Of a DNA stretch of 64,000 nucleotides, positions 18,109 to 35,532 are shown piece after piece (positions within the stretch are counted from its first letter, which is position 1; the number at the start of each line of letters is the position of its first letter). Source of the DNA: Oscillospiraceae bacterium. GTDB taxonomy: Bacteria > Bacillota > Clostridia > UMGS1840. Under the pieces are notes generated by a model that searched no databases, had not been told where the DNA came from, and saw only the letters and a program-made list of their open reading frames with translations. Both the position numbers and the translations under genes were made by a program. Location: NCBI GenBank assembly GCA_015068645.1, contig SVKD01000005.1:62001-126000 (forward strand), written 5' to 3'.

Positions 18109-18122
18109 TATTGGTGAAGCGT

Positions 18123-18809: not shown

Positions 18810-18812
18810 TCC

Positions 18813-19856
18813 ATGCGCTATAAAGTGGGTATGTATGGCGGCTCCTTCGATCCCCTGCATATCGGACATATTCACGATATGATAAGAGCAGCTGCCATGT
18901 GTGAAGAACTCTATATTATGATCAGTTGGTGCCAAGGAAGAGAATCCACTTCAAAAGAACTTCGTTATCGTTGGATTTATAACAGCATCAAACATTTACG
19001 CAATGTCAAACTCATTATGATTGAAGACAAAGCAGTATCCAAAGAAGAATATAACACTGATTACTATTGGGAAAAAGGTGCAAAAGATATTAAAAATACG
19101 ATTGGAAAGCCCATTGATATCGTCTTCTGCGGAAGTGACTACAAAGGGACCAACCGTTTCGAAAGCTTATATGAGCCGGAAAGTGTTGTTCATTATTTCG
19201 ACAGAACGGAAGTTCCTATCAGCTCCACCGAAATCAGAACCTGGGCATTGGACCATTGGGATTATATTCCCGGGGTATGCAAATCACATTATGCAAAAAA
19301 GGTACTGATTGTTGGCGGAGAAAGCACCGGAAAATCCACGTTGGTTCAAAATCTGGCTTTGGCATATAACACAAATTATGTAACAGAAGTTGGCAGAGAA
19401 ACCTGCGAATACGCAGGTGGTGAAGATTTAATGCTTGCAGAAGATTTATACGAAAATTTTCTTCGGCAGAAGCTTAATACTATGGAAGCGGCAAAACATT
19501 GTAACAGAATCGTTTTTGTGGACACTGATGCTCTTACCACTCTGTTTTACAGCAACTTCCTACTGGAAGGCGAAAATGAAAACATTAAAATTTGTACAAA
19601 GTTTGCAGAAGCAATTTCAAAAACAAACATCTGGGATCTGGTGATCTTTTTAGAACCGGAAGGCACCGTTTTTATCCAGGATGGAACCAGAAACGAAAAC
19701 ATCAAACAGGAACGCAAAAAATTCAGTGACCAACTGAAAAGCTTTTTTCAAAAGTACCAAGTTCCTTTTGAAAGCATCAGTGGAGATTATTTAGAACGAT
19801 TTAACAAAACCAAAGAACTCATTGAAACAAAACTCAATCTAACAACAAAATGGTAA
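18813..19856 (+). CDS. nadR: NMN adenylyltransferase / ribosylnicotinamide kinase NadR
   Basis: The 347-aa protein has two domains. The N-terminal nucleotidyltransferase has GGSFDPLHIGHIH at residues 9-21 and the ISSTE motif near 134, and makes NAD from NMN and ATP. The C-terminal kinase has the P-loop GGESTGKST near 167 and phosphorylates nicotinamide riboside to NMN. The repressor HTH domain of enterobacterial NadR is absent, in keeping with regulation by NrtR. It starts 3 bp after pnuC with a GGAAGGTG site. PnuC and NadR together form the riboside salvage route. Confidence 0.93.
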   Translation: MRYKVGMYGGSFDPLHIGHIHDMIRAAAMCEELYIMISWCQGRESTSKELRYRWIYNSIKHLRNVKLIMIEDKAVSKEEYNTDYYWEKGAKDIKNTIGKPIDIVFCGSDYKGTNRFESLYEPESVVHYFDRTEVPISSTEIRTWALDHWDYIPGVCKSHYAKKVLIVGGESTGKSTLVQNLALAYNTNYVTEVGRETCEYAGGEDLMLAEDLYENFLRQKLNTMEAAKHCNRIVFVDTDALTTLFYSNFLLEGENENIKICTKFAEAISKTNIWDLVIFLEPEGTVFIQDGTRNENIKQERKKFSDQLKSFFQKYQVPFESISGDYLERFNKTKELIETKLNLTTKW

Positions 19857-19869
19857 AGGAGAAAACAAC

Positions 19870-20400
19870 ATGAAAAAATTATTAATCGTGGTAGACATGC
19901 AAAAAGATTTTGTGAACGGTGCATTAGGTTCTAAAGAAGCTGTTGCCATTGTAGACAATGTGGTAAACAAAATTGAGAACTTTGACGGCGATATTATCGT
20001 AACATACGACACACATCCCGAAAACTATATGGAAACTCAGGAAGGAAAAAATCTGCCCGTCCCCCACTGTATCAAAGGAACAGACGGCTGGAAACTGGAT
20101 GTCAAAGTGCAGGCAGCGGTTGACAAAAAAACTTACAAAGCCATTGAAAAACCCACTTTTGGTTCCACCGAACTTCCCGAATATATCAAAGCAAACTACA
20201 ATCCTGACGAATTAGAAATCCAGCTCATTGGTCTTTGCACTGATATCTGCGTGGTATCTAATGCCCTCTTAATGAAAGCGAACTTTTTAGAAACCAAAGT
20301 AACTGTGGATGCAAGCTGTTGCGCCGGAGTAACTCCCGATAGCCACAATGCAGCACTCACCACAATGAAAATGTGTCAGGTTCAAGTGATTGGAGAATAA
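19870..20400 (+). CDS. pncA: Nicotinamidase-type cysteine hydrolase
   Basis: The 176-aa protein belongs to the isochorismatase-like hydrolases. VVDMQKDFVNGALG carries the catalytic Asp9, GLCTDICVVSNAL the nucleophilic Cys near 124, and TYDTHPENY with PHCIKG the metal-binding and acid residues of nicotinamidases. It should deamidate nicotinamide to nicotinate. The operon has no nicotinate phosphoribosyltransferase of the PncB type, so the product would need an enzyme encoded elsewhere. The start has an AAAGGAG site 9 bp upstream. Other cysteine hydrolase substrates cannot be excluded. Confidence 0.85.
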   Translation: MKKLLIVVDMQKDFVNGALGSKEAVAIVDNVVNKIENFDGDIIVTYDTHPENYMETQEGKNLPVPHCIKGTDGWKLDVKVQAAVDKKTYKAIEKPTFGSTELPEYIKANYNPDELEIQLIGLCTDICVVSNALLMKANFLETKVTVDASCCAGVTPDSHNAALTTMKMCQVQVIGE

Positions 20401-20402
20401 TT

Positions 20403-21200
20403 ATGATTAAATTAAATGATACTGTTGTAAATATCGGACATTTTCCGGATGGAACAATGCTCTTAAAACAGGATATTCCGGAAGCGGAAAAAATAACAAT
20501 TTCCTGGTTTTACGAAAATGATACGGAAATGATGGCGCTGATTTACCTCACAAATCATCTGAAAGCGCACCAAAAAGAGCAAATTCATCTGTATCTGCCC
20601 TATATTCCAAATGCCCGTCAGGACAGAGTGAAAACCAGCGAAGATGTGTTCACCTTAAAATACTTTGCCGGAGTGATTAATTCTTTAGGATTCAAAACCA
20701 TAACGGTCTTAGACCCGCATTCCAGCGTCAGCGAAGCTCTCATAAACAATATTATTATTGAAAAACCCACCAAACTCATTGAAAATACCATTGCCAAAAT
20801 CACAGCAGCAGAAGGAGAAGCACCTTCTATGTTTTATCCCGATGAAGGAGCAGGAAAACGCTATTCCGGTATGATTCCCCTTCCCTATGCATTCGGTATC
20901 AAAAAACGTGATTGGGCAACCGGTCAGATCAAGGGACTGGACGTAGCAGGCGACGTAGATAATATTCAAGGTAAAAACATCCTGATTGTGGATGATATTT
21001 GTTCCAAAGGCGGCACTTTTTACTTCTCGGCGAAAAAATTAAAAGAACTGGGGGCAAAAAATATTTATCTGCATATCACCCATTGTGAAAACACCATCTT
21101 CGACGGTGACCTGCTAGAAAGTGGTCTGATTACAAAAATCTATACCACCAACAGTATTTTAACGAAAACACACGAAATGATAGAAATTGTAAACTTATAG
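20403..21200 (+). CDS. Short ribose-phosphate pyrophosphokinase-like enzyme
   Basis: The 265-aa protein has the PRPP-binding loop LIVDDICSKGGTF near 197-209 and the LYLPYIPNARQDR catalytic phrase near 62, both characteristic of PRPP synthetase. It is about 50 residues shorter than housekeeping Prs and resembles the compact forms found in phages and in nadV gene pairs. It should make PRPP for the next gene, a nicotinamide phosphoribosyltransferase. Compact relatives in phages instead pyrophosphorylate ADP-ribose, so the substrate should be regarded as open. ATG 20403 is 2 bp after the previous stop, with GGAGAA upstream. Confidence 0.85.
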   Translation: MIKLNDTVVNIGHFPDGTMLLKQDIPEAEKITISWFYENDTEMMALIYLTNHLKAHQKEQIHLYLPYIPNARQDRVKTSEDVFTLKYFAGVINSLGFKTITVLDPHSSVSEALINNIIIEKPTKLIENTIAKITAAEGEAPSMFYPDEGAGKRYSGMIPLPYAFGIKKRDWATGQIKGLDVAGDVDNIQGKNILIVDDICSKGGTFYFSAKKLKELGAKNIYLHITHCENTIFDGDLLESGLITKIYTTNSILTKTHEMIEIVNL

Positions 21201-21212
21201 GAGAAAAAGAAA

Positions 21213-22682
21213 ATGAGCAATGCAATTAACCCTATGTTGCTGTGCGACTTTTATAAAACTGTACACAGCGATATGATTAACCCCAAAATGACCAAATCCA
21301 TGTCCTATTACACGCCCAGAATGAGCCGTGTAAACAGATGGGACAAAGTGGTAATGTTCGGCGTGCAGATGTTCTGCAAAACCTGGCTGATTGATTATTT
21401 TAACCAATATTTCTTTGAGCTTAGCGAAGAAGAAGTGGTAGAAGAATACACCAGAGTGCTGGATGCAACTTTAGGAAAAGGGATCTACGGAACCGAAAAA
21501 ATCAGAAAACTGCATCAGTTAGGATATTTACCGATTGAAATCATTGCGCTTCCCGAAGGGACCATGGTTCCTGTGCACGTGCCTATGTTTGGCATCACCA
21601 ACACTCACGACGATTTCGCTTGGTTGCCTCAGGCGTTGGAAAGCTTGATTTCTGCAGAAATGTGGTATCCCCAAATTACTGCAACCGTAGGCAAAACCTA
21701 CAGAGATATTGTCAATAAATACTATGCGGAAACCGTAGACGACAATGTGCCCAGAGCAAAAGCGTTAGGTGCTTTTGACTTCCGAGGAGATATGTGTGTG
21801 GATGCAGCATTAAAAGCAGGTGCAGGCTGGTGCTTATCCTTTTTAAATACCGCTACGGTTCCTGCAATTCCCTACTTGGAAAATATGTTTAACTGCGATT
21901 GTACCAAAGAGCCGGTGGCATACGGAGCAGTTTCTACCGAACACTTTGTAATGTGCTCCAACTATGCAGTGGACGGCGACGAAATCACCTTCCTTCGCAA
22001 AATGCTCACCGAATTATATCCCAACACCAGCTTCTCCTGTGTGCTGGATAGCTATGATTACTGGAACGTAATTGATAACATTCTGCCTCAACTTCACGAT
22101 GAAATTTTAGCTCATAATGGCTGTATGCTGATGAGAGGTGATTCCGGAGACTGTGTAGAAGTAGTTACCAAAACCGTATTCAAGCTGTGGGACCAGTTCG
22201 GCGGAACTGTAAACTCCAAAGGATATAAAGTGTTGGATCCTCATGTAAAAGCTATTTATGGAGACAGCATTACCGTACAGCGTTGCGAAGAAATTTATGA
22301 AATCTTAATGAAGGAAGGTTTCGCTTGCTCTAACGTGGCTTTAGGTGTCGGCTCCTTCTCCATGCACTGTATTGAAGAAGACAATATGTTAAAACCTTTC
22401 ACCAGAGACACCTTCTCTTCCTGCATCAAGGCTTGTTATGCAGAAGTGGACGGAAAATGCTACCCCGTTTTCAAAAATCCCAAAGACGGTGGCTTTAAAA
22501 AGAGCCAGAAAGGTCTCTGCTATGTGTATGAAGAAAACGGCGAATTAAAATACAAAGATGAATACACTTCCAAAAACATTCCCGAAGGAAATCTGTTGGA
22601 AACCGTATTTAAAGACGGAAAAATGGTAAAAGATTATACATTGGACGAAATACGTCAAAAATTGAATGGTGGTGAATTTTAA
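21213..22682 (+). CDS. nadV: Nicotinamide phosphoribosyltransferase (NAMPT/NadV family)
   Basis: The 489-aa protein has the length and order of motifs of NAMPT. These are LLCDFYKTVHSDM at the N-terminus, VSTEHFVMCS near 240, SCVLDSYDYWNV near 270, LMRGDSGDCVEVV near 305, NSKGYKVLDPHVKAIYGDSI near 330 and FKNPKDGGFKKSQKG near 430. It should convert nicotinamide and PRPP to NMN, which NadR adenylates. Where vertebrate NAMPT has HDFGYRG (its Asp contacts the nicotinamide amide) this protein has GAFDFRG, so acceptor or donor preference may differ. It follows the PRPP-synthetase-like gene by 12 bp. Confidence 0.9.
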   Translation: MSNAINPMLLCDFYKTVHSDMINPKMTKSMSYYTPRMSRVNRWDKVVMFGVQMFCKTWLIDYFNQYFFELSEEEVVEEYTRVLDATLGKGIYGTEKIRKLHQLGYLPIEIIALPEGTMVPVHVPMFGITNTHDDFAWLPQALESLISAEMWYPQITATVGKTYRDIVNKYYAETVDDNVPRAKALGAFDFRGDMCVDAALKAGAGWCLSFLNTATVPAIPYLENMFNCDCTKEPVAYGAVSTEHFVMCSNYAVDGDEITFLRKMLTELYPNTSFSCVLDSYDYWNVIDNILPQLHDEILAHNGCMLMRGDSGDCVEVVTKTVFKLWDQFGGTVNSKGYKVLDPHVKAIYGDSITVQRCEEIYEILMKEGFACSNVALGVGSFSMHCIEEDNMLKPFTRDTFSSCIKACYAEVDGKCYPVFKNPKDGGFKKSQKGLCYVYEENGELKYKDEYTSKNIPEGNLLETVFKDGKMVKDYTLDEIRQKLNGGEF

Positions 22683-23413
22683 TGTTTGATGCAAAAAAAG
22701 TGAAAAATGACTGTGTAAAATGGATTCAGAATTTCTTTGAAGCAAACGGAAAAGATTGTAATGCGGTAGTTGGAATTTCCGGCGGAAAAGACAGCTCCAT
22801 TGCGGCAGCTTTGTGTGTGGAAGCTTTGGGAAAAGATAAAGTTGTGGGAGTGTTAATGCCTCAGGGTGAACAGCACGATATCGACAAGGCTTATGAACTT
22901 GTTAATCACTTGGGAATCCGTCATTATGAAATCAATATCAAGGATGCGGTTGACGGCATCTTAGAAAACTTTCCAAAAGATTTAGAACCCACTTCTCAAA
23001 CTGTTCAGAATATTCCTCCCAGAATCAGAATGTCTACCCTGTATGCAGTATCTCAGAGCGTAAACGGCAGAGTATGTAACACCTGTAATCTGTCGGAAGA
23101 CTGGGTTGGATATTCCACCAGATACGGCGATTCCGTGGGTGATTTTTCTCCGCTTTCCAATCTGACGGTAACCGAAGTAAAACAAATCGGATATGAATTA
23201 AACTTACCCAAAGATTTGGTAGATAAAATCCCTATTGACGGTCTTTGCGGAAAAACTGATGAAGAAAATTTAGGGTTCACTTATGCGGAACTGGATATTT
23301 ATATCAGAACCGGCAAAATTGAAGATCAGGCGAAAAAAGAACTGATTGACAGAAAACACAAAATGAATCTGTTTAAATTGGAACTGATGCCCTGCTTCAA
23401 ACCGGAGGTATAA
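22682..23413 (+). CDS. nadE: NAD synthetase, ammonia-dependent type
   Basis: The 243-aa protein lacks the glutaminase domain. The PP-loop GISGGKDSS at residues 31-39 binds ATP, and the phrases VLMPQGEQHDI, GRVCNTCNLSEDWVGYSTRYG and GDFSPLSNLT are typical of the NH3-type enzyme. It amidates nicotinate adenine dinucleotide to NAD. The start overlaps the stop of nadV by one base (TAATG), so translation is coupled. The deamido substrate is not made by the NadV-NadR route, so this enzyme links the operon to nicotinate or de novo synthesis. Confidence 0.93.
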   Translation: MFDAKKVKNDCVKWIQNFFEANGKDCNAVVGISGGKDSSIAAALCVEALGKDKVVGVLMPQGEQHDIDKAYELVNHLGIRHYEINIKDAVDGILENFPKDLEPTSQTVQNIPPRIRMSTLYAVSQSVNGRVCNTCNLSEDWVGYSTRYGDSVGDFSPLSNLTVTEVKQIGYELNLPKDLVDKIPIDGLCGKTDEENLGFTYAELDIYIRTGKIEDQAKKELIDRKHKMNLFKLELMPCFKPEV

Positions 23414-23417
23414 TCCT

Positions 23418-24296
23418 ATGAATATCCAAAGTTTATCTATCGTTGTTCCCAATCGCTCATGTATCAACAATTGCAAATTCTGTGTCAGCAGAATGCATTG
23501 TGAAGATATTCCCTATCATATTCACATTGATGATCCCGATTTTGAAACCCATCAGAGCGATTATTTAAAACGGCTTGCATTCGCAAGAGATAACGGCTGT
23601 AATACCGTGATGCTCACCGGTTCCAGCGAACCTCAGCAAAACAAGCAATTTCTGCAATATTTTGCCGAAATGAACAAACGGCTGGAAAAACCTTTCCGTT
23701 GGATTGAAATGCAAACCACCGGTGTACTTTTAGATGACGGTTACCTGAACTTTTTAAGGAAAAGTGTTGGAGTAAATACTATCAGTGTGTCCATCACCTC
23801 TTTTGATGATGAAGTCAACCGTTCCTACGTGCAGATGCCTGAAAAATATGCAGTAAATCTGCAGGAACTTACGAAAAAAATCAAATCTTTCGGATTCAAT
23901 TTAAGATTATCTGTCAACATGACTGATTATTTCAATAAATATCATCGGAATGCAGCCGAATTTTTTGAGGATGCGAAAAAATTATTCAATCCAGACCAGA
24001 TGACCATTCGTCTTCTATACAAAACCAATGACGCAAGTCCCCAGTCTGATTGGGTCAACGAACACGCCTGCAACGAAGATGTCACCAACGAAATCGTGGA
24101 CACTGTACGTTCTAACGGGATTCAACTGGAACGCCTCCCCTACGGCAGAATCAAATATTCCTATCTCGGAATGTCGTTAGTGGTTGATGATGACTGTATG
24201 AGTAAAACTGCTGTGGAAGATTATAAATACTTAATTCTGCAGCCAAACTGCAGATTATACAGTCGTTGGGATGATACTGCAAGTCTTATTTTTTAA
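23418..24296 (+). CDS. Radical SAM protein in the NAD operon, function unknown
   Basis: The 292-aa protein has the radical SAM cluster motif at Cys15, Cys19 and Cys22 (CINNCKFC). A glycine/serine-rich strand (VMLTGSSEPQ) follows near residue 72, and then QTTG and SVSITSFDDEV, as in SAM-binding half-barrels. It has no extra ferredoxin or SPASM-like cysteine cluster, and no known subfamily could be assigned by eye. It starts 4 bp after nadE and is the last gene of the operon, so its chemistry is probably connected to NAD or nicotinamide metabolism or repair, but this is inferred from position only. Confidence 0.8.
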   Translation: MNIQSLSIVVPNRSCINNCKFCVSRMHCEDIPYHIHIDDPDFETHQSDYLKRLAFARDNGCNTVMLTGSSEPQQNKQFLQYFAEMNKRLEKPFRWIEMQTTGVLLDDGYLNFLRKSVGVNTISVSITSFDDEVNRSYVQMPEKYAVNLQELTKKIKSFGFNLRLSVNMTDYFNKYHRNAAEFFEDAKKLFNPDQMTIRLLYKTNDASPQSDWVNEHACNEDVTNEIVDTVRSNGIQLERLPYGRIKYSYLGMSLVVDDDCMSKTAVEDYKYLILQPNCRLYSRWDDTASLIF

Positions 24297-25116: not shown

Positions 25117-25135
25117 AATCAGCTGGTTTCATACC

Positions 25136-25169
25136 AAAAAAGGTGTATCTTCCATGATACACCTTTTTT
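25136..25169 (+). terminator. Terminator of the 236-aa gene
   Basis: AAAAAGGTGTATC pairs with GATACACCTTTTTT around TTCCAT. Confidence 0.9.
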
Positions 25170-25216
25170 GTATTTATTCTCGGTAAGACTTCCCCAAAAA
25201 TCTTCCGGCGCAAGCC

Positions 25217-25245
25217 TTGATTTTCAAATGGTTTTATGCTATAAT
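25217..25245 (+). promoter_or_regulatory. Promoter of the eight-gene operon 25289-35267
   Basis: TTGATT (25217-25222) and TATAAT (25240-25245), 17 bp apart, 44 bp before the first start codon. No other promoter of this quality was seen before 35267. Confidence 0.8.
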
Positions 25246-25288
25246 AAATTTGTATTTTATGTCGAAAAATGTTGTTAGGTAGCAATCT

Positions 25289-26341
25289 ATGAAACAAAAA
25301 CAAACCCTCAAAAATATATTTCATAAAACACCGATATCATGGAATGTCACATCTCCTGCCGATAACCAGGGTATCAGCACACGGATACTTTCCAAAAAAG
25401 GCTCTGTTTTTCGGTACAACGTGGAATTTTCAGATGGTACCAAAACCACATTTATCGGAAAACGAAAGTCAGCAATCATTCTTGCCAAAGGTGCAAAAAT
25501 GCTTGCTGAACACAACATTCCGCTTTTTTTGGCTATTTGTATGCGAAACAAAACATTTGGATTTCAAAAAGGTTGGAAACGGGAAGCCTATATCTACCAA
25601 AAGATGCCAAAAAAATTGCGAAAACATTTACCGCTGCTGTACGGAGCTGATATTAGACCGCTTGGTAAAACCGGTTTTTTAGCGATGGAGGAATTCTCTT
25701 TCAGCACCCCCGTAAGCAAAGAAAACATTTATCAGATTATTGATGGGATTCTCCCAATTCATAATCATTTTTTTAATCAACCAAATGCAGTGAAAGACCT
25801 ATGTATCAACCGCTTTAGTGCCAAAGATTATAAAAAAGAAAAACGAATTTTAAAAAAGATTTTTGATCATTTAGGGGATAATGTCTTAAGCATTTTAGGA
25901 GAAAAGAAGGTGCAAACAATTCACCGTTTTGCAGATCGGCTGGATGAGGAAGCCAAACAAGTATCTTTTCACCAAACTCTGACGCACAACGATTTTTCCA
26001 ATCGAAATATTGCTGTTACTCCCAAGAAGGTTATCTTTTACGATTGGGAACTGGCTACCTTTCAAAATCCCGAACACGATATTGTGGAATTGGTTCTGTC
26101 TGTGATGGACGATATGTCGCCGGAAGAAATCAAAAATGTGTTTACTTATCACAAGGAGCACCTCCCCATCGCAATATCTGAAGAAACCTACAGAAAGTTA
26201 CTGCGATTTAATCTATTGGAATTTTGCATCATCAAATTAAGCTTAATCCGTGGCGCAGATATCCGATTACAGTTAAATTATGCGAATCGGATTGCGAAAA
26301 ACATCGCCACTTTAATGGATCTGTTAAATATCGAAAAATAG
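25289..26341 (+). CDS. Aminoglycoside-phosphotransferase-fold kinase
   Basis: The 350-aa protein has the kinase signature of the APH/choline kinase fold: THNDFSNRN with His233, Asp235 and Asn240 as the catalytic loop, and FYDWELA with Asp252 as the metal-binding residue (the equivalent of DFG). The N-terminal lobe has GKRKSAIILAKGAKML with a likely nucleotide lysine. Members phosphorylate hydroxyls of small molecules (aminoglycosides, choline, ethanolamine, homoserine, sugars). The substrate is unknown and it need not concern drug resistance. First gene of the operon. No strong ribosome binding site is visible; the start follows the promoter by 44 bp. Confidence 0.8.
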   Translation: MKQKQTLKNIFHKTPISWNVTSPADNQGISTRILSKKGSVFRYNVEFSDGTKTTFIGKRKSAIILAKGAKMLAEHNIPLFLAICMRNKTFGFQKGWKREAYIYQKMPKKLRKHLPLLYGADIRPLGKTGFLAMEEFSFSTPVSKENIYQIIDGILPIHNHFFNQPNAVKDLCINRFSAKDYKKEKRILKKIFDHLGDNVLSILGEKKVQTIHRFADRLDEEAKQVSFHQTLTHNDFSNRNIAVTPKKVIFYDWELATFQNPEHDIVELVLSVMDDMSPEEIKNVFTYHKEHLPIAISEETYRKLLRFNLLEFCIIKLSLIRGADIRLQLNYANRIAKNIATLMDLLNIEK

Positions 26342-26352
26342 AAGGAACTCTT

Positions 26353-27234
26353 ATGGAACGAGAACTGAAAATCTTAGAACTTGCCGATTACTATGAAAAA
26401 TTTGAAGTTGGAAACAGCAGCGCATACCTGATTATCAATAAAAAGCTGGAAGATTATCCGTGTATGTTTGGTTTTGTGAACTTATCGGAAAATCTGACGG
26501 ATGCCAAGAAGCTGTTTTGCAATTTGGAAAACCGCGCCAAAGAACTTGGCTACCAGAAGATTGTGGGTCCTATGAATTATTGCTCCTGGATGTCGTATCG
26601 CTGGACAACTGACAATTACGATTTAAAACTATTTCCCGATTGCAACAATCCGCCGTATTATAACGATATTGTAAAACAACTTGGATATTCTCCACTCTAT
26701 ACCTATCGCAGTGCGGTAATTGATATGAACAATCCTCTGTATGCTATGGGAGAAGCGATTTACAAAAAAAAGCTGGACGAAGGATTTTCCTTCCGTTTTT
26801 ATCATGGAGAAGAAGCTCTCAGTTTGGCTGAAGAAGTATTTGCCATCTCCAAAGATGCCTTCAGGGATGCTTATCTTTATTCCGATATTCCAGATGAATA
26901 TTTTACCAAAATCTATATGAGCTGGATAAAGCAGGTAGACGTGGCGATTTATGTGGCCTATTACAAAAACAAACCCGTTGGATACGCTATGGGCTATGCT
27001 AATCCCTACAGCAATCATTTCATCTCCAAAACGACTGCCGTGAAAAAAGCTTTTCAGAAAAACAAGCTGTATGTGGCACTCTTATACTTAGGCTATGACT
27101 ATGTTTCAAAAATGGGATACTCAGATATTATCTATCATTTTCAATGCGAACAAAAGGATATGTTCCGTCGTTTTGACTCGACTGTTGAATCCAATGAAAA
27201 AAGATATGCAGTCTATAAAAAGGAGCTTCTATGA
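26353..27234 (+). CDS. GNAT-type acyltransferase
   Basis: The 293-aa protein shows a GNAT layout over its C-terminal half. This includes a VAIYVAYYKNKPVGYAMGY strand pair near residues 197-215, as in the acceptor-binding strands of GNAT enzymes, and a C-terminal FRRFDSTVES phrase. The N-terminal half has RAKELGYQKIVGPMNYCSWM, resembling the first GNAT domain of proteins with a tandem fold. It should transfer an acyl group from a CoA or carrier to an amine. ATG 26353 starts 11 bp after the kinase stop with an AGAAGGA site; the longer frame upstream overlaps the kinase and is not needed. Confidence 0.75.
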   Translation: MERELKILELADYYEKFEVGNSSAYLIINKKLEDYPCMFGFVNLSENLTDAKKLFCNLENRAKELGYQKIVGPMNYCSWMSYRWTTDNYDLKLFPDCNNPPYYNDIVKQLGYSPLYTYRSAVIDMNNPLYAMGEAIYKKKLDEGFSFRFYHGEEALSLAEEVFAISKDAFRDAYLYSDIPDEYFTKIYMSWIKQVDVAIYVAYYKNKPVGYAMGYANPYSNHFISKTTAVKKAFQKNKLYVALLYLGYDYVSKMGYSDIIYHFQCEQKDMFRRFDSTVESNEKRYAVYKKELL

Positions 27235-28295
27235 AAAAACAATGTACCCGTTGCATCAATGATACCACGGTAAGAAGAATTCAATTTGATGAAAACGGCG
27301 TTTGCAATTACTGTAACCGCTATGATACCATCAAAAAACAGTTAAATGATTATCCGCATCTTGAACAGCTCTTTTCAGAAAGAATTGAGCGTATCAAAGG
27401 AAAATTTGATTACGATGTGGCTTTAGGAATCTCAGGCGGAAAAGACAGCGTATTTGTGTTGCATGAGCTGGTCAGAAAATATCAACTTAAGGTAAAAACC
27501 TTTACCTTAAACAATGGTTTTTTGAGTGATTCTGCCAGATACAACATTGATAAAATTGTAAAAGAATTCGACGTAGAACATGAATATATTGATTTCTCCC
27601 CCGAAATCTTAAAAAAATTCTACCGTTATTCAATGAAAAAATGGTTAGCCCCTTGCGTTGCCTGCTCGTACTTAGGCTATGCAACCATGATTAACTATAC
27701 CGCAAAAATCAATGCAGGACTTTGTATTCACGGAAGAAGTCCGCAACAAATGCTTCGCTATTACGGGGATGATGTGTTTACCGCACTGGTGGATGCAGGG
27801 TTACAGTCACCAACTACTTTTGATGTGAATGAATTATATACCGATTTACTGAAAAGCATTGAATGCAAAGTGGATAAAAGGCTGATGGCGGAAGTCAGAA
27901 GTTTTTTATTAAAAGACATCAAAAACAATTCATTCCGTGAGTTTGTATCCTATTTTTTGTATCATAAATACGATGAAAAAGAAATCGTGGAGTTTCTTTT
28001 AAAAAACACAAGCTGGACTCCCAAAAAAGACTACGACCACTACGATTGCAAAATTCACAATGCCGCGCATTATATTTACCAATGTGCAGAAGGTCGTCCC
28101 CACTGTCTGCCGGAAATCAGCTTTTTGGTAAGGAACGGTGATTCAGACAAGCAGACGGCAAAAGACGAAGTGAGAAAAAAGCATTACGAAAAAGCCCCCA
28201 AAAAAGAATTAAAATTATTATGTGATTTTGTAAACTTAAGCCCCTCTGTTTTACTGACCAAGGCTAAGATTTACCGAAAATTTTTGAAAAAATGA
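27231..28295 (+). CDS. PP-loop amidotransferase-like enzyme (WbpG/PseA type)
   Basis: The 354-aa protein begins with a four-cysteine site (Cys5, Cys8, Cys25, Cys28; CTRCINDTTVRRIQFDENGV opens it), then the ATP pyrophosphatase loop GISGGKDS at 66-73. This combination is seen in N-acetyl sugar amidotransferases of the WbpG/LegX/PseA group, which turn a carbonyl or acid group into an amidine or amide using ammonia from a partner. The C-terminal PHCLPEISFLVRNGD phrase belongs to the same group. No HisH/HisF-like ammonia partner is present in the operon, so the nitrogen or sulfur donor is open. The start overlaps the previous stop by 4 bp. Confidence 0.8.
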   Translation: MKKQCTRCINDTTVRRIQFDENGVCNYCNRYDTIKKQLNDYPHLEQLFSERIERIKGKFDYDVALGISGGKDSVFVLHELVRKYQLKVKTFTLNNGFLSDSARYNIDKIVKEFDVEHEYIDFSPEILKKFYRYSMKKWLAPCVACSYLGYATMINYTAKINAGLCIHGRSPQQMLRYYGDDVFTALVDAGLQSPTTFDVNELYTDLLKSIECKVDKRLMAEVRSFLLKDIKNNSFREFVSYFLYHKYDEKEIVEFLLKNTSWTPKKDYDHYDCKIHNAAHYIYQCAEGRPHCLPEISFLVRNGDSDKQTAKDEVRKKHYEKAPKKELKLLCDFVNLSPSVLLTKAKIYRKFLKK

Positions 28296-28795
28296 AACTG
28301 ATTCACTACCTTTTTAAAAACTGCAAATTCTTAATTTATCTGATTCTTGCAGTTTGCATTAGCTTCATATCGAATATCATGATGCAAAAAGCTTTTAGTA
28401 TACTCCCAAAGCTGGTTGCACCTGTATTTTTGATTCTTTTCATTCTTCGAACCAACGATGATATCAAAGATTATGAAAAAGACAAAGGCAACAAAACACA
28501 ATATCTTTCCAAAAAAGAACTGATTTCACTATACATATTCCTGAGTTTTTTACTGGTAGCAATCAATTTATGTATATATCCGATACACGGATTTCTCAGC
28601 ATTCTAATCATCGGGTATATGCCGCTTTTGGAAAAAGCGGCTCCCTTCAAGCTGTTTTTCGGTGCATTTCTGTTTATTTTGTATGCATGGCTAAACGAGG
28701 TGAGCTCTCTGAATCACTATGTGGTGGGAACGTCAGTTTTCTTGGTATTATCCACAATATTTTACGTTATGAAAACGAGGAAATCATATGATTGA
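28292..28795 (+). CDS. Short UbiA-like membrane protein
   Basis: The 167-aa protein has five or six hydrophobic segments. RTNDDIKDYEKDKGNK near residues 51-66 resembles the first Asp-rich (N/D-D-x2-D-x3-D) motif of UbiA prenyltransferases, which bind prenyl diphosphate through magnesium. Full UbiA proteins are about 290 aa with a second Asp motif; only the first half is present here, so it may be a reduced relative or a structural membrane partner. It overlaps both neighbours (4 bp upstream, 8 bp downstream), so it is translated with them and not a decayed fragment. Confidence 0.6.
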   Translation: MKLIHYLFKNCKFLIYLILAVCISFISNIMMQKAFSILPKLVAPVFLILFILRTNDDIKDYEKDKGNKTQYLSKKELISLYIFLSFLLVAINLCIYPIHGFLSILIIGYMPLLEKAAPFKLFFGAFLFILYAWLNEVSSLNHYVVGTSVFLVLSTIFYVMKTRKSYD

Positions 28796-31343
28796 ATATA
28801 TCGATTACGTAACATCGACAGAAAAAATCGGAGGAAAGGCATATCACCTTTCTCACCTTTTTGAAAATAAGTTTCCTGTTCCGAATTGGATTGTGTTATC
28901 TTCGGATGTTTTTTTTGAGTTTTTAGGAGAAGACAAAGTAACGTATACTTCCCTTTTAAATCATTACACAGAAGAAAACAGAGTACACCTTATTTCCTTA
29001 ATAAAACACAAACAGTTTTCTGATGAATGCAAACAGAAAATCTTAAACCAAGTGCAATCCGTCTTCTCACAAACGGATTTATTGGCTGTGCGTTCCAGTG
29101 CAACTGACGAAGACGGAGATCATCATTCCTTTGCCGGAATGATGGAATCCTTCTTAAACGTGACAATCGAAGACGATATTTTTGATGCAATAAAAGCATG
29201 TTACTTATCCTGCTTTTCGGAGCGAATTATGAAATACCGCGCTCAGAACGGACTGATTAACGCCAATATCAGTGTGGCTGTCATTCTTCAAAAAATGATA
29301 ACGCCCGATGTTTCAGGCGTAATGTTTACTTCTAATCCACGTACCAACAATCCCGAGGAATGTTTGATTTGCGTTGTAAAAGGATTGGGAGAACGGTTGG
29401 TATCGGGAGAAGCAGACAGTACCGACTATGTGGTGAACCAAAACGGAGAAATCACTGTCAAAAATATTGCGGATGAGCTTATCTTAAGCGATGAAATCAT
29501 CAAAAAAATTCACGCAACGGGAATCGCTATAGAAAAAAGCTATTCTCCCCGTGTGGCAAAAGATATTGAATTCTGTCTTAAAGATAACGAACTTTACATT
29601 CTTCAGGCAAGAACCATTGCAACCTACAGTTTTTGTGATAAAAACAAGCCCTTGACAATTCTGGATAATTCCAACATTATCGAAAGCTATTCAGGAGTCA
29701 CCACTCCCCTGACCTACACCTTTGCTAAAGATGTTTACACCAAAATATACAATCAGACTTTAAAAAGTTTTTTTGTGAAAGATTCGGCCATCAAATCCAT
29801 TCAAGACGATCTTGCCAATATGATTGTGTTCTACGAAAACAAAATCTATTACCGGTTAAACAGTTGGTATAAAATGACAGCCCTCTACCCCGGATATGAA
29901 AAAAACAAAAAATATATGGAAAACATGATGGGAGTCAAAGTGGAGCTGGTGGAAACCAAAAAAGCTGCCAAAATACGTGAAATCCGTATTTACACCAGTT
30001 TTATTAAGAAAATGCTTCTGATGAAACGGCACAGTAAAAAATTTATTGAAAAATTCAATGCCGTTACCAAACCTTACTACGGTTCTGATTTCAAAGGAGT
30101 TAAAAACACAGAACTACTATCTGTTTACAATTCCTTGGAAACAGAAATTTTAGACGATTTCATCACGCCCATCGCCAACGATATGGGCGCTATGATTTTC
30201 TATGGATTCTTAACAAATTTACTAAAAAAACAGAATATTCAAAATTATGAAGGGCTCATCAGCGCTGTAATCAGCAAACAAGGAAATGTGGAAAGCGCTC
30301 AACAAAGCGAAAAGCTTCTTTGGATTATAAAACAAATTAAAAACGACCAAGAGCTTTCCAATCTTTTTCTAACAAAATCAACAGAAACCATTATCCAAAA
30401 AATGGATTCAGATTCTCCTGTTTTCACAGCAATCAGAGAGTATATTTATCAATATGGTGCCAGAATGATGGATGAACTAAAGCTGGAAACCATAACACTT
30501 TTTGAAGATCCCACGTTTCTGATAGAAACCATAAAACATTATTTATGTTTAGAAAACTCAGTTACCGAAAATAAACAAGATTCCAAATCGGCACAAAAAG
30601 AGTTGCTCTCTCACTTTGGATTATTCCAAAAACCGATTGTCAGTCTTCTTGTGAATATTACCAAATTCTTTGTAAAAAATCGGGAATCCTTACGATTAAG
30701 AAGAACCTACATTTATTCCATTGTGCGGAGTATTTATCTGCGTGCAGGTCAAAACCTTTATGAAAAAGGAGTTCTGCTGGCACCAAGGGACGTGTTTTAT
30801 CTGACAAAAGAGGAACTCACAGATATGATGCAAGGTGCAGAATATGAGATTGCAGCAATCAGAAATTCTATCAATAACCGTAAAGCAGAATACACAAAAA
30901 ATAAAGATAAAATAACTTATGAAAGAATGCATTTTTACGGTGAAGTGTGTCCTGAGAATGCATTAGCTGTCTACTCCGAACAAGAATGTGTGGACACAGA
31001 CGTACTGCAAGGTGTAGCCGGCGGCGGAACCGTGGTAGAAGGAACCGTAAAACTGGTAGAAGATCCCGCCGGTTCCGACGTAACAGGTTATATTCTGATG
31101 GCCAAACGAACTGATCCCGGTTGGACTGTTCTGTTCCCCATGGCAAAAGCAATCATTATTGAGCGCGGCAGTATCCTCTCGCATTCTGCAGTGGTTGCCA
31201 GAGAAATGGGCTTGACCTTAGTGGCGGGAATCCGCGGACTGACAAATAAAGTGAAGGATGGTATGAGAGTGCGGGTTGACGGTATCAACGGCACTGTCGA
31301 AATCATAGACGATGAACAAAATGAAAAACAACAAAACGAATAA
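28788..31343 (+). CDS. PEP synthase-like phosphotransferase (rifampin phosphotransferase-like layout)
   Basis: The 851-aa protein starts with an ATP-grasp PPDK_N domain (AVRSSATDEDGDHHSFAGMM at 101-120, and the VMFTSNP and EFCLKDNELYILQAR phrases). A long helical middle region follows, and the mobile phosphohistidine domain closes it (GSILSHSAVVARE with His799, then VDGINGTVEI). The PEP/pyruvate-binding TIM barrel of PpsA and PPDK is missing. The same layout is found in rifampin phosphotransferase, where the beta-phosphate of ATP passes through the histidine to a small-molecule hydroxyl. Here the acceptor is unknown; a pathway intermediate is more likely than an antibiotic because of the operon context. 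Confidence 0.85.
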   Translation: MIEYIDYVTSTEKIGGKAYHLSHLFENKFPVPNWIVLSSDVFFEFLGEDKVTYTSLLNHYTEENRVHLISLIKHKQFSDECKQKILNQVQSVFSQTDLLAVRSSATDEDGDHHSFAGMMESFLNVTIEDDIFDAIKACYLSCFSERIMKYRAQNGLINANISVAVILQKMITPDVSGVMFTSNPRTNNPEECLICVVKGLGERLVSGEADSTDYVVNQNGEITVKNIADELILSDEIIKKIHATGIAIEKSYSPRVAKDIEFCLKDNELYILQARTIATYSFCDKNKPLTILDNSNIIESYSGVTTPLTYTFAKDVYTKIYNQTLKSFFVKDSAIKSIQDDLANMIVFYENKIYYRLNSWYKMTALYPGYEKNKKYMENMMGVKVELVETKKAAKIREIRIYTSFIKKMLLMKRHSKKFIEKFNAVTKPYYGSDFKGVKNTELLSVYNSLETEILDDFITPIANDMGAMIFYGFLTNLLKKQNIQNYEGLISAVISKQGNVESAQQSEKLLWIIKQIKNDQELSNLFLTKSTETIIQKMDSDSPVFTAIREYIYQYGARMMDELKLETITLFEDPTFLIETIKHYLCLENSVTENKQDSKSAQKELLSHFGLFQKPIVSLLVNITKFFVKNRESLRLRRTYIYSIVRSIYLRAGQNLYEKGVLLAPRDVFYLTKEELTDMMQGAEYEIAAIRNSINNRKAEYTKNKDKITYERMHFYGEVCPENALAVYSEQECVDTDVLQGVAGGGTVVEGTVKLVEDPAGSDVTGYILMAKRTDPGWTVLFPMAKAIIIERGSILSHSAVVAREMGLTLVAGIRGLTNKVKDGMRVRVDGINGTVEIIDDEQNEKQQNE

Positions 31344-32409
31344 AAAATTTTCATTTATCCGATATTCCAACTGTTGGGAAGATACCACTGTGCTTTTAGA
31401 AGCTCTTCAAATTAAATCGGATGATATCTGCTTATCCATCGCATCTGCCGGTGATAACACATTATCACTTCTTATCTCCCAGCCCAAAAAAGTGTATGCG
31501 CTGGACATCAACAAAACACAGCTATATTGTCTGGAACTGAAAATGGCTTGTTTTAAGGCACTTTCTTACGAAGAAATGTTGGCATTTTTGGGAATCGGCA
31601 CTTGTAACAGAGTTGCTGTTTTTGAAAAATTGATTCCCTATCTTAGCGAAGAAGCAAACAATTTCTTCCGAAAAAACTTGAAAATCATAAAAAAAGGTAT
31701 CATACACGTGGGAAAATTTGAGCGTTTCTTTCATTTATTTCGAAACGTGGTGATTCCTGTTGTGAGCAGTAAGAAAAAACTTGCCCGTTTATCGGAATTA
31801 TCTGACTATCAGGAACAAACAGACTATTATAATCGCTATATCCATACGAAAAGATTCCAATTTCTTTTCAGAATCGTTTTCGGTCATAAATTTTTGGGAA
31901 CTATGGGCAGAGACCGTGATTTTTACCAATATGTGGAAGAAAAAGAAGAAAGCGGAAACGACTTAAAAAAACGGTTTGAATTTGGTATTTCTCACACGAA
32001 AAACCGTACCAATCCCTACCTATGCTATATTGCCAATCAAACTTACCGAGAAAATGCTCTTCCTTTGTATTTGAAAAGAGAACATTTTAATACCATTAAA
32101 AAAAATCTTTTTAAAATCGAAATGATTCACGGAGACTTATCTTCAGTAAACCATCTTCATTTTGACTGTTTCAATTTATCAGATATTTTTGAATATATGA
32201 GCGAAGAAGAATTTTCAGATTGCGAAGAATTGCTTTCAAAAATTTCCAATCCCAATGCACGCCTCTGTTACTGGAATATGCAAAATAAACGGTATTTTAA
32301 GGATTCTTGCTTTCAATTAGAGGAAGAACCCTCTCATCAACTATTTCAAAAGAACCAGGCCTACTTTTACAGAGATTTTAGGCTATACAGAAAGGAATCC
32401 CATGAGTAA
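31312..32409 (+). CDS. DUF3419 / BtaA-like 3-amino-3-carboxypropyl transferase
   Basis: The 365-aa protein has the DUF3419 pattern: FIRYSNCWEDT at the N-terminus, then the SAM-binding loop LSIASAGDNTLSLL and VYALDINKTQLYCLELK (motif II with its acidic residue). GTMGRDRDF occurs in the middle and NLSDIFEYMSEEEF near the end. BtaA moves the 3-amino-3-carboxypropyl group of S-adenosylmethionine to diacylglycerol to make a homoserine lipid. The partner methyltransferase BtaB is absent, so a betaine lipid is not expected. The start overlaps the previous gene by 32 bp; ATG 31321 is an alternative. Confidence 0.8.
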   Translation: MNKMKNNKTNKKFSFIRYSNCWEDTTVLLEALQIKSDDICLSIASAGDNTLSLLISQPKKVYALDINKTQLYCLELKMACFKALSYEEMLAFLGIGTCNRVAVFEKLIPYLSEEANNFFRKNLKIIKKGIIHVGKFERFFHLFRNVVIPVVSSKKKLARLSELSDYQEQTDYYNRYIHTKRFQFLFRIVFGHKFLGTMGRDRDFYQYVEEKEESGNDLKKRFEFGISHTKNRTNPYLCYIANQTYRENALPLYLKREHFNTIKKNLFKIEMIHGDLSSVNHLHFDCFNLSDIFEYMSEEEFSDCEELLSKISNPNARLCYWNMQNKRYFKDSCFQLEEEPSHQLFQKNQAYFYRDFRLYRKESHE

Positions 32410-33859
32410 CATTGTGGACATCTTTTTAAACGCGTGTCAATTACATAGCAAAAAAACAGCAATCATCTATGAAAAAAAAGGAAAAATCATATCCCAAACC
32501 TTTTTGGAGCTACAACAAGATGTATTTGCCACCGTCTGTTATATGAGAAAAAATAAAATACGGCAAGGAGATAAAATCCTTGCCTTTTGTGCGTCCTCTT
32601 ATGAGCTATGCGTTTTTATGTGGGCATCTTTATTGGTGGGAGCCTCCATTATGTATGTAGATATTTTGGCAAAGCAAAAAAGTCTTCGGGAAATTTTCAA
32701 AGAATACACTCCCGATCGGATTTTAGTATGCAATAAAACCAAAGCTCTTCGTTTTTTCTTTCGGGAATTTTCAAAAATCAAGCAAGTAATCAATATTGAT
32801 AAAATCCCAATGAATTCTTTTGATTCCGATAAAATTGCCTTATCCCGAATATCAGAAGATACGTTGGCATTACTGACTATGACCACAGGCTCCACAGGAA
32901 TCCCGAAAGTAGCCTTAAGAAGCCATCAGGACCTGATGCAACAACTGCAATTAATCAAGGACAATACCGTGTTATCCTATCAGAATGAAATGGCTCTGAC
33001 CACTTCATATATTTATGTGTTTGCCAATATGCTCTGCGGCATCACCACCGTGTTACCCCAACTGAATTTAAAGAAACATGAAAAATCGATCAATCAAAGA
33101 TTGGCTCTGTTTTCTCATTTACCCGTTACAATGGCAATCACCACGCCCGATTTTTGTTTCAAAGCAGAAAACCACTTTCCCAACTTAAAACGTCTGTACG
33201 TCGGCGGAGCCATCTTAAATTTGCACGAAGCCAAACAGATTCAGAACAAGTTCCCTGATTCTGAAAATATTGTAATATACGGCTCCACAGAATGCAGTAT
33301 TATGTGCACAATCACACTGAAAGAATTTATTTCTCTGCTATCACAAACAGGACGATCTCCTTTAGGGTATCCCGTAAAAGGAGTAGATGTCCGTTTAACC
33401 GATGAAAACGAAATTATCGTCCATAGTGATGCCCTGCTGGCAGATTATCTTACCCAAGATAAATCCACTAAAACTAACGATGAAAACGGTTTCTTATGGC
33501 ATCATACCAACGATATGGCAATAAAACAAAACGGTGTTTTTTATTTTTTAGGAAAAAGCAAGTATTTTGTGAGCGTAAACAACCAAAAAATATATTCCAA
33601 TGAAATCGAACAGAGGATTATCACAACTCTGGAAGAAATATCCAAATGTGCAGTTTTGCAGCATCAAGAAAAAGTTTACGTGTTTTTAGAAGACTACACC
33701 AAAGAACTTGCCGAAAAAATCGCAAAAATCCTGCGAAAAACTTATCAAATTACAAATTCCGAAGTGGTGCCCATCAAAAAGATTCCGTGCGATGTGAAGC
33801 ACCACACGAAGATTCATTACGAAAAGTTAAAAAAGAGGTTCAAACATGACAGAATATAA
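32402..33859 (+). CDS. AMP-forming acyl/aryl ligase 1
   Basis: The 485-aa protein belongs to the ANL adenylating superfamily. The phosphate-binding loop is MTTGSTGIPKVALRSHQD near 160, IYGSTECSIM near 298 is the A5 motif, and the C-terminal hinge has LGKSKYFVSVNNQKIYSNEI. The last Lys-rich segment could carry the A10 lysine. It activates a carboxylic acid as AMP ester and usually loads it onto CoA or a carrier protein. No carrier protein gene was found in the operon. Overlaps the previous gene by 8 bp and the next by 14 bp. Confidence 0.88.
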   Translation: MSNIVDIFLNACQLHSKKTAIIYEKKGKIISQTFLELQQDVFATVCYMRKNKIRQGDKILAFCASSYELCVFMWASLLVGASIMYVDILAKQKSLREIFKEYTPDRILVCNKTKALRFFFREFSKIKQVINIDKIPMNSFDSDKIALSRISEDTLALLTMTTGSTGIPKVALRSHQDLMQQLQLIKDNTVLSYQNEMALTTSYIYVFANMLCGITTVLPQLNLKKHEKSINQRLALFSHLPVTMAITTPDFCFKAENHFPNLKRLYVGGAILNLHEAKQIQNKFPDSENIVIYGSTECSIMCTITLKEFISLLSQTGRSPLGYPVKGVDVRLTDENEIIVHSDALLADYLTQDKSTKTNDENGFLWHHTNDMAIKQNGVFYFLGKSKYFVSVNNQKIYSNEIEQRIITTLEEISKCAVLQHQEKVYVFLEDYTKELAEKIAKILRKTYQITNSEVVPIKKIPCDVKHHTKIHYEKLKKRFKHDRI

Positions 33860-35267
33860 TATTGATGCTCTTTTAAAACGAGGAAAAGAACAGTTTGGCA
33901 CCAGAAAATATATTTATGAAAAGCATCAGGGAAAATTTGTTGCAAAAAAATACGCCGACTTTGTTTTTGATGTTTATGCCTTTGCTTCCCTGCTCATGGA
34001 AAAAGGATTGTCAGATTGCAACATCGGTTTATACGGCCCCAATTCTTATCTCTATATGGTGGCAGATATTGCTGTGATGGGATATGTAGGTACCTGCGTT
34101 GCAATATCCAAGGAATGGAAATATTACGACTTGGAAAACACCGTTACCAAACTAAAGCTTTCTGCAATACTGTATGATTCTTCCAAAGAAGAAGAAATCC
34201 GTCCTTTAAAAGCTGTCTTTCCGACTGTTTTATTTATTTGTCTGAATGAAATCAAACATCTGAAAGAACAAAGACAATCCCCTGCTCCGAGAAATCCCCA
34301 AGAATGTTCCAAAATCGTCTTTTCTTCAGGTACAACCGGGATTCCCAAGGCAATTATGCTATCCCAACAGAATATGTTTGCCAATTGGGAAAATCTTTAT
34401 AAAAGAGCTCCCCTAAATTGCGAAGATACCTGTTACTTGTTTTTGCCGCTGCATCATGTATATGCGGGAATCAGCGTGTTTTTATATTCGCTCATTACCG
34501 GTATGCAGATATATCTGTGCAGCGATACCCAAAATATCTTCCAAGAAATTCAGCAAATTAGACCAACTGTGTTCTGTGCAGTTCCTTTGATTTATGAAAA
34601 AGCATACAGAATCTGTAAAAGCGAAAATATCCGACCGTCTGACTTATTTGGCGGACGGATGAAATTTTTATTTTCGGGCGGTGCATTTTTTAAGCCTGAA
34701 ATCAGAAAATTTTTAAAAGATGACGGAATCAATCAACTTCACTCCTACGGATTATCTGAAACTTCCTCCATTATTTGCGTGGAATATTCCAATCAGAACG
34801 ATTTTGAATCGGTTGGAACCATATTTGAAAATTTGGACGTAAAAATCAAACATCCTGATGAAAACGGTATTGGGGAAATAACAGTCCGTGGCGAAAATGT
34901 TTTTTTAGGATACTACAGAAAAAATCTCCAAGACACTTTCGATAAAGACGGCTATTTTCACACAGGAGATATCGGCTATATCCAAAACAATAAAATCTAT
35001 CTTTGCGGCAGAAAAAAACGAATGATTTTAATGTCCAACGGCGAAAATGTGTACCCCGATGAAATTGAGGAACTTCTGATGGAACACGAATCCATCAACA
35101 AAGCAAAAGTTTTTGAAAAGGACCATAAAATTGTGGCACAGCTATATGTGAATCAACAAATTAACTGTGAAACAGTAATTCAAACAATTAATCAAAAATT
35201 GCCAAAATACTCTATCATAACAGATTTTGAAATGATTTCCGACAACGTAGATGTAAGATTGAAATAA
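33846..35267 (+). CDS. AMP-forming acyl-CoA ligase 2
   Basis: The 473-aa protein shows the complete ANL motif set: VFSSGTTGIPKAIMLSQQNM near 157, HSYGLSETSS near 299 (A5), GYFHTGDIGYI near 373 (A7) and LCGRKKRMILMSNGENVYPDEI near 385-405 (A8 hinge, quoted in part elsewhere). The pattern SGTTGIPKA with HHVYAG is most like fatty acyl-CoA or long-chain ligases. It is clearly related to but divergent from the gene before it, so the two probably activate different acids. Last gene of the operon; a terminator follows at 35316. Confidence 0.9.
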   Translation: MTEYNIDALLKRGKEQFGTRKYIYEKHQGKFVAKKYADFVFDVYAFASLLMEKGLSDCNIGLYGPNSYLYMVADIAVMGYVGTCVAISKEWKYYDLENTVTKLKLSAILYDSSKEEEIRPLKAVFPTVLFICLNEIKHLKEQRQSPAPRNPQECSKIVFSSGTTGIPKAIMLSQQNMFANWENLYKRAPLNCEDTCYLFLPLHHVYAGISVFLYSLITGMQIYLCSDTQNIFQEIQQIRPTVFCAVPLIYEKAYRICKSENIRPSDLFGGRMKFLFSGGAFFKPEIRKFLKDDGINQLHSYGLSETSSIICVEYSNQNDFESVGTIFENLDVKIKHPDENGIGEITVRGENVFLGYYRKNLQDTFDKDGYFHTGDIGYIQNNKIYLCGRKKRMILMSNGENVYPDEIEELLMEHESINKAKVFEKDHKIVAQLYVNQQINCETVIQTINQKLPKYSIITDFEMISDNVDVRLK

Positions 35268-35315
35268 ACAATACTCTTTGTGAACCACGCGACTATCGCA
35301 TGGTTTTCATGATAC

Positions 35316-35349
35316 AAAAAAGGCACAGGAAACAAGTTCCTGTGCCTTT
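35316..35349 (+). terminator. Bidirectional terminator between operons
   Basis: AAAGGCACAGGAA pairs with TTCCTGTGCCTTT around CAAG. It ends both the plus-strand eight-gene operon and the minus-strand genes at 35371 onwards. Confidence 0.85.
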
Positions 35350-35370: not shown

Positions 35371-35532
35371 CTAGATCTGAGAGCCTTCGTCTAAAAGAGC
35401 CATGTTGTAAGTGGTGGTGATTTTACCATTGGAAGTAGTTACAACTGCGGTTTCTAACGGATTTTCGTAAGCAATTGCTTCATTTGCTTCGATAGAAACG
35501 AATTCTAAAGAAGGGCAAGTATATTTTTTCAT
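35371..35532 (-). CDS. 53-aa peptide gene downstream of a secreted protein
   Basis: A short open frame starts at ATG 35532 with a strong AGGAGG site 10 bp upstream and reads MKKYTCPSLEFVSIEANEAI and 33 more residues, ending LLDEGSQI. It has no signal peptide or membrane segment. The N-terminal MKKY-x-x-P-x-L/M-E-x-V form is one I associate with short clostridial peptides of unknown function, some of them near peptide-modification genes. It lies 22 bp after the stop of the 603-aa secreted protein and before a shared terminator, so the two are probably one transcript. The C-terminal half, rich in Thr, Asn and Ser, could be a core region, but no modification enzyme is adjacent. Confidence 0.7.
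   Translation of the reverse strand: MKKYTCPSLEFVSIEANEAIAYENPLETAVVTTSNGKITTTYNMALLDEGSQI

Follow-up and report, generated by a model that had tools for sequence, protein, structure and literature searches.

A BtaA-containing operon from an Oscillospiraceae bacterium belongs to a gene cassette found across phyla that may make an aminolipid

INTRODUCTION

In bacteria, BtaA is known for phosphorus-free betaine lipids. The BtaA/BtaB pathway to the betaine lipid DGTS uses a SAM 3-amino-3-carboxypropyltransferase of the same family (PF11899, DUF3419) as the operon described here and, to judge from the sequence of this key enzyme, is the nearest described pathway. Aminocarboxypropyl transferases as a class use non-lipid acceptors too (PMC10491745).

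The other gene products of the operon resemble proteins from different systems. The prodiginine ligases RedH and PigC and the rifamycin phosphotransferase RPH share with its PEP-synthase-like enzyme (PEPS) the three-domain order (ATP-grasp, central and C-terminal phospho-His domains), the catalytic His and the absence of a barrel. The N-acetyl sugar amidotransferase WbuX/WbpG shares with its PP-loop enzyme the N-terminal Cys pairs and the SGGKDS PP-loop, and the match runs over full length. OleC/PRK09274 fatty acid CoA ligases are the best-scoring family for the first of its two ANL ligases (ANL1) and for the relatives of that protein. UbiA prenyltransferases share the first Asp-rich motif and a multi-pass membrane nature with its half-length UbiA-like protein (half-UbiA), and a full UbiA is found at the same position in one class of related loci (type A, below).

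We propose, with about even confidence, that the operon represents type B of a widespread cassette that is as yet undescribed and most likely makes a membrane-associated aminolipid.

RESULTS

A Single Operon of Eight Genes

The stretch of DNA analysed (the window) comprises 64,000 nucleotides from an Oscillospiraceae bacterium. Eight open, co-directional reading frames on its + strand (25289-35267) form one operon (Table 1). The GNAT ATG at 26353 lies 11 bp past the end of the K1 gene, and the subsequent junctions are overlaps of 4, 4, 8, 32, 8, and 14 bp; the 32-bp PEPS/BtaA overlap becomes 23 bp if BtaA begins at the second Met. The single eight-gene operon with seven tight junctions, six of them overlaps, that had been proposed in a sequence-only reading was thereby confirmed. 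Of the one promoter and one terminator claimed in the same reading, the terminator was upheld, its 113-nt region folding strongly (z = -5.2). The promoter is a consensus match and can be called only plausible, because sigma-70-like sites are no more common than in shuffles (35 found versus 34 ± 5.9 expected). The earlier family calls held for the APH, GNAT, PP-loop, PEP-synthase-like, BtaA, and both ANL proteins, whereas the supposed UbiA-like protein is half-size and has the first Asp motif only.

Table 1. Features of the operon and its boundaries (+ strand throughout)
Feature	Position	Strand	Length (aa)	Evidence
Terminator-like hairpin, end of preceding transcription unit	25135-25170	+		15-pair stem, T-rich tail
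Candidate sigma-70-type promoter	25217-25245	+		TTGATT-17-TATAAT, TG-extended, consensus match
K1, APH/EcKL-fold small-molecule or lipid-alcohol kinase	25289-26341	+	350	Pfam APH, 6.6e-7
Tandem GNAT acyltransferase	26353-27234	+	293	Weak Pfam GNAT, model and fold search
WbuX/WbpG-like PP-loop ATP-pyrophosphatase/amidotransferase	27231-28295	+		TIGR03573, 142.1 bits; SGGKDS
Half-length UbiA-like membrane protein (half-UbiA)	28292-28795	+	167	R..DD..D...D motif 1 only
PEPS, PEP-synthase-like phosphotransferase/ligase	28788-31343	+	851	PPDK_N, PEP-utilizers
BtaA-like (DUF3419) SAM 3-amino-3-carboxypropyltransferase	31312-32409	+	365	PF11899
ANL1, OleC/PRK09274-like AMP-forming acyl ligase	32402-33859	+	485	AMP-binding, 1.5e-29
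ANL2, AMP-forming ligase, MenE/long-chain-like	33846-35267	+	473	AMP-binding, 1.8e-48
Operon terminator hairpin	35319-35349	+		13-bp stem

Pfam and NCBIfam searches returned no carrier protein, condensation, or ketosynthase domain in the eight genes, in agreement with the earlier statement that PKS, NRPS, and carrier proteins are lacking, and no methyltransferase besides BtaA itself. The operon is also devoid of a transporter, a glycosyltransferase, a nucleotide-sugar enzyme, and a HisH/HisF-type partner. The operon is bounded upstream by the hairpin at 25135-25170, and the preceding NAD-salvage operon (17230-24296, + strand; NrtR-NUDIX, PnuC-like transporter, NadR-like, isochorismatase-fold nicotinamidase, PRPP-synthetase-like, NAPRTase, NAD synthase, and radical SAM genes) therefore forms a separate unit. 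Elsewhere, the window contains a 53-residue ORF, MKKYTCPSLEFVSIEANEAIAYENPLETAVVTTSNGKITTTYNMALLDEGSQI (35371-35532, - strand), which has a good ribosome-binding site and lies downstream of a large surface-protein-like gene, and a T-box leader (RF00230; 42432-42679, + strand) upstream of an ORF at 42701.

The Cassette Recurs in 23 Loci

BtaA homologues were gathered by class, phylum, order, genome-contig, and plasmid searches, and their surroundings were searched with profiles. A UbiA protein (full or half), PEPS, and BtaA are encoded on the same strand in 23 loci, the window included. These loci come from Bacillota and Bacteroidota, from an order of MAGs labelled 'Mollicutes', and from one alphaproteobacterial plasmid; co-conservation, the check set beforehand for the proposed operon, thus extends across three phyla. 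Two layouts account for 22 of the loci, and locus L068 is a further variant. Type A has the order [HMG-CoA-reductase-like]-UbiA-PEPS-BtaA-CTPK-GNAT-ANL and occurs in 13 loci of Bacteroidota, some Clostridia, and the Roseinatronobacter sp. S2 plasmid. Besides full UbiA, PEPS, BtaA, and CTPK, type A loci have GNAT and ANL with few exceptions, and nine of the 13 have the HMG-CoA-reductase (HMGR)-like gene. Type B, with the order GNAT-PP-loop-half-UbiA-PEPS-BtaA-ANL, comprises nine loci (the window, one other Clostridia MAG, and seven from the order of 'Mollicutes'-labelled MAGs); a search of 295 genomes from the order to which L013 belongs yielded no additional type B locus.

Six of the eight window genes are common to related loci, GNAT being present in 22 and ANL1 in 21 of the 23 (one of the two loci without ANL1 stops at a contig edge). 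K1 and ANL2 lie outside this shared set. A K1 homologue (E ∼1e-25) adjoins BtaA in two other genomes only (L021/L022), where it is fused to an HMGR-like reductase, and no ANL2 counterpart was detected in profile searches of the related loci. The single eight-gene pathway originally envisaged is therefore supported for the six shared genes; K1 recurs only as that fused relative, and ANL2 is window-specific.

Related Loci Contribute Lipid Genes

Acyl-CoA reductases, YegS/DAGK kinases, a phosphatidylserine-decarboxylase homologue, and a CDP-alcohol phosphotransferase are encoded in related loci, and these lipid genes support a lipid-linked or acylated amino-acid-type product, which stays the simplest inference, as it was from the sequence at the outset. 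L068 has a fatty-acyl-CoA reductase (NAD_binding_4), a YegS/DAGK kinase, and the phosphatidylserine-decarboxylase homologue beside UbiA-PEPS-BtaA, companions pointing to lipid substrates. The L069 BtaA is a fusion with a PEMT-type methyltransferase, and a DAGK is encoded beside it. Together with the HMGR-kinase fusions of L021/L022, these two loci suggest that a lipid alcohol is made by reduction and then phosphorylated, with the enzyme family at each step varying. CTPK of type A has no usable Pfam or NCBIfam match; from motif resemblance, we tentatively take it to be a dolichol/phytol-kinase-like kinase.

Of nine carrying genomes tested, seven have no HMGR other than the HMGR-like protein of the cassette, and HMG-CoA synthase was found in none of 16 genomes, in which positive controls were recovered. 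We therefore rejected a mevalonate role; the type A enzyme probably reduces another acyl-CoA and is a candidate for a non-mevalonate HMGR subfamily. HMGR-like proteins in a BtaA/UbiA context occur in L014, L061-L067, L079, L021, and L022, and the motif TGDA.GQNM is present in ten aligned sequences.

Several BtaA neighbourhoods have further genes of note. A decarboxylase gene lies near BtaA in L068 (phosphatidylserine decarboxylase) and in L069 (PLP-dependent Orn/DAP/Arg type), where decarboxylation may convert the aminocarboxypropyl group to aminopropyl. In L070 (7748-10660), the BtaA homologue comes immediately after a gene of the aldehyde-decarbonylase family and what may be an acyl-ACP-reductase-like gene. 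L081 (Rhizobium sp. plasmid pMK-2, 1817-8155) encodes a ketoacyl synthase III, an NAD-dependent oxidoreductase, an MBL hydrolase, a CoF-synthetase-like ligase, and DUF3419 in a single run, a different and possibly Ole-like BtaA cluster.

PEPS, Half-UbiA, and K1

PEPS consists of ATP-grasp, central, and phospho-His domains (PPDK_N (PF01326), 5.7e-55; PEP-utilizers (PF00391), 2.4e-19) and retains the conserved His799. No PEP-utilizers_C barrel was matched at E 0.1, and the mobile domain forms the end of the protein. Missing the PEP-binding TIM barrel, PEPS is therefore not a PEP synthase. Its relatives by sequence include RPH, RedH, and PigC, and the scores against the curated RedH, PigC, and RPH models are 264, 256, and 248 bits (cut-offs 1350, 1300, and 999).

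Half-UbiA precedes PEPS, is fused to its N terminus in six loci, and has no Pfam match. The first Asp-rich motif is present (RTNDDIKDYEKD; Asp-56, Asp-57, Asp-60, and Asp-64 are invariant), and the second is absent from the 167 residues. Alignment with the family of full UbiA proteins from type A loci covers motif 1 only (hhalign probability 79, E 1.6e-5, 34 columns), and an AlphaFold model from a three-row alignment reached a pLDDT of 52.5, too low to judge the fold by. The probable relationship to UbiA thus rests on one shared 34-column motif and on synteny and position; lacking motif 2, the protein may be non-catalytic. K1 keeps the catalytic motifs HNDFSNRN and YDWE.

These three proteins could also be read in terms of a natural product of amino-acid type that is soluble and secreted (like a metallophore, opine, or antibiotic), for which BtaA would extend a small-molecule amine or hydroxyl, the ligases would make amides, and the membrane protein would merely anchor PEPS. 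Such an anchor is compatible with the missing second motif, RedH and PigC are small-molecule ligases, small molecules are common APH kinase substrates, and the GNAT, PP-loop, and two ANL enzymes suit amide chemistry. The operon has, however, neither a transporter nor a carrier, and lipid enzymes are numerous in related loci (fatty-acyl-CoA reductase, YegS/DAGK, phosphatidylserine decarboxylase, CDP-alcohol phosphotransferase, UbiA). We regard a soluble product as unlikely, yet as an alternative to be taken seriously.

The BtaA Protein Belongs to a Separate Clade

The window BtaA matches PF11899 with 207.8 bits (E 3.8e-61), and the closest eight-sequence set of homologues is at 35-39% identity. 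Maximum-likelihood analysis of 43 BtaA proteins placed the PEPS-linked sequences and those of L021/L022 in one clade (96/89), outside of which the other BtaA proteins fall. The window protein belongs to a type B group (98/97), which itself branches from within the type A sequences. No PEPS was present in six loci, flanks included, whose BtaA falls outside the clade (L069-L072, L080, and L081). The window BtaA differs from other type B members by about two changes per site; at a divergence this large, the linkage has been kept by selection, by repeated transfer of the unit, or by both. None of the four congeneric genomes has BtaA, consistent with transfer or loss.

The clear homology to BtaA could mean that the operon follows the betaine-lipid (DGTS/DGHS) route, BtaA acting on diacylglycerol and the remaining genes only tuning the head group; the BtaA-methyltransferase fusion of L069 with its DAGK neighbour would agree with this. 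Against this stand the separate clade, the lack of a methyltransferase gene in an operon whose BtaA is tied instead to PEPS, GNAT, and ANL across 23 loci, and the contrasting arrangement in L080 (Rhizobium), where the DUF3419 gene adjoins a SAM methyltransferase. The route is improbable here.

GNAT, PP-loop, and ANL Enzymes

The AlphaFold model of the GNAT protein (pLDDT 75) retrieved tandem GNATs of the clavulanate pathway with Foldseek (E ∼1e-11). It resembles, less closely, FemX/MprF aminoacyl-tRNA transferases, and the donor could therefore be an aminoacyl-tRNA. Most other type B GNATs bear an additional N-terminal domain, a HAD phosphatase by Pfam in the two tested (L012 and L013). GNAT and PP-loop genes are adjacent in all nine type B loci, and across the 23 loci the PP-loop gene never occurs together with HMGR or CTPK. 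The PP-loop protein matches TIGR03573 (WbuX) over residues 3-337, and its N-terminal CxxC...CxxC and SGGKDS motifs are conserved in nine of nine type B loci. Two plasmid homologues of the PP-loop protein, H8 (Roseovarius pelagicus) and H18 (Streptomyces), coincide with genes annotated as encoding NRPS or condensation-domain proteins.

The full-length TIGR03573 match, together with several plasmid homologues annotated as N-acetyl sugar amidotransferases, raises the possibility of a cell-surface glycan or lipid-linked sugar, in which the WbuX-like enzyme would make an acetamidino sugar from a GNAT-acetylated N-acetyl sugar. We consider this very unlikely: the score of 142.1 bits lies under the cut-off of 203.2, the operon lacks a glycosyltransferase, a nucleotide-sugar enzyme, and a HisH/HisF-type partner, and BtaA, PEPS, and ANL would have no evident role.

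ANL1 retains the C-terminal lysine motif (CDVKHHTKIHY), which ANL2 apparently lacks. PRK09274 is the top NCBIfam model for ANL1 (162 bits) and the best for four relatives, OleC beta-lactone synthetase models ranking next in three; an OleC-type beta-lactone or olefin pathway is nevertheless extremely improbable, with ANL1 well below the OleC equivalog cut-offs and OleA-, OleB-, and OleD-type genes absent from the window operon by Pfam/NCBIfam.

DISCUSSION

We favor a lipid-linked aminocarboxypropyl product with moderate confidence, and hold each single step toward it with low confidence. Starting from gene content, synteny, family membership, conserved catalytic motifs, and the separate BtaA clade, the chemistry might run as follows. 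The acceptor would be a lipid or long-chain alcohol, arising in type A from acyl activation by the OleC-like ANL and reduction by the HMGR-like enzyme or a fatty-acyl-CoA reductase. The lipid alcohol would then be phosphorylated by CTPK or YegS/DAGK, or by K1 in the window. The type A-derived steps may not apply to type B, because no acyl-CoA reductase is found in type B loci and a kinase in the window only. PEPS, working at the membrane with its UbiA-like partner, could use its phospho-histidine to phosphorylate the lipid intermediate or to condense it. BtaA would move the 3-amino-3-carboxypropyl group from SAM, probably onto a hydroxyl, creating a homoserine-ether-type head with a free amine. 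That amine would be acylated by the tandem GNAT, with ANL1/ANL2 supplying the acyl groups. Type B would include a further step, in which the WbuX-like PP-loop enzyme activates the amide (or carboxyl) with ATP and adds nitrogen, giving an amidine or amide head.

A more specific version of the aminolipid proposal envisages a new class of membrane lipid, in which a long-chain (possibly 1,3-diol) alcohol, derived from an activated beta-hydroxy acid by the HMGR-like enzyme, would bear an N-acylated, SAM-derived aminocarboxypropyl ether head, with an amidine in type B as it occurs in gut-type bacteria. In all these particulars, it is distinctly doubtful.

That a separate BtaA clade is tied to PEPS, UbiA-like, GNAT, and AMP-ligase proteins in Bacillota and Bacteroidota as well as in an alphaproteobacterium implies a lipid or amphiphile that has yet to be described, and the cassette may be overlooked by cluster finders, as it bears no PKS/NRPS signature. 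One carrier, Roseinatronobacter sp. S2, has been isolated and sequenced; with its plasmid-borne copy of the cassette, it allows a direct approach by lipidomics.

In the open-licence literature and the family models searched, we found no described pathway that joins BtaA, PEPS, UbiA, GNAT, and an OleC-like ligase, and so no match of the operon to a known pathway, in keeping with its earlier description as uncharacterised. Among open-licence papers mentioning DUF3419, none is on such an operon by title or abstract. A paper on the lipocone superfamily names UbiA, HMGR, and an aminocarboxypropyl transferase but contains no description of this cassette.

In contrast to RedH, PigC, and RPH, PEPS scores far under the family cut-offs and is linked, in some loci by fusion, to a UbiA-like membrane protein. 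The PP-loop enzyme, below the WbuX/WbpG cut-off and with no HisH/HisF partner, neighbours a GNAT in an aminocarboxypropyl-transferase operon. ANL1 likewise falls below the OleC/PRK09274 cut-off, in an operon without OleA/B/D, and half-UbiA is half the length of UbiA prenyltransferases, with no second Asp motif. Compared with the BtaA/BtaB pathway, finally, the operon has no BtaB, and its BtaA belongs to a distinct clade that keeps the constant company of PEPS, UbiA-like, GNAT, and AMP-ligase proteins.
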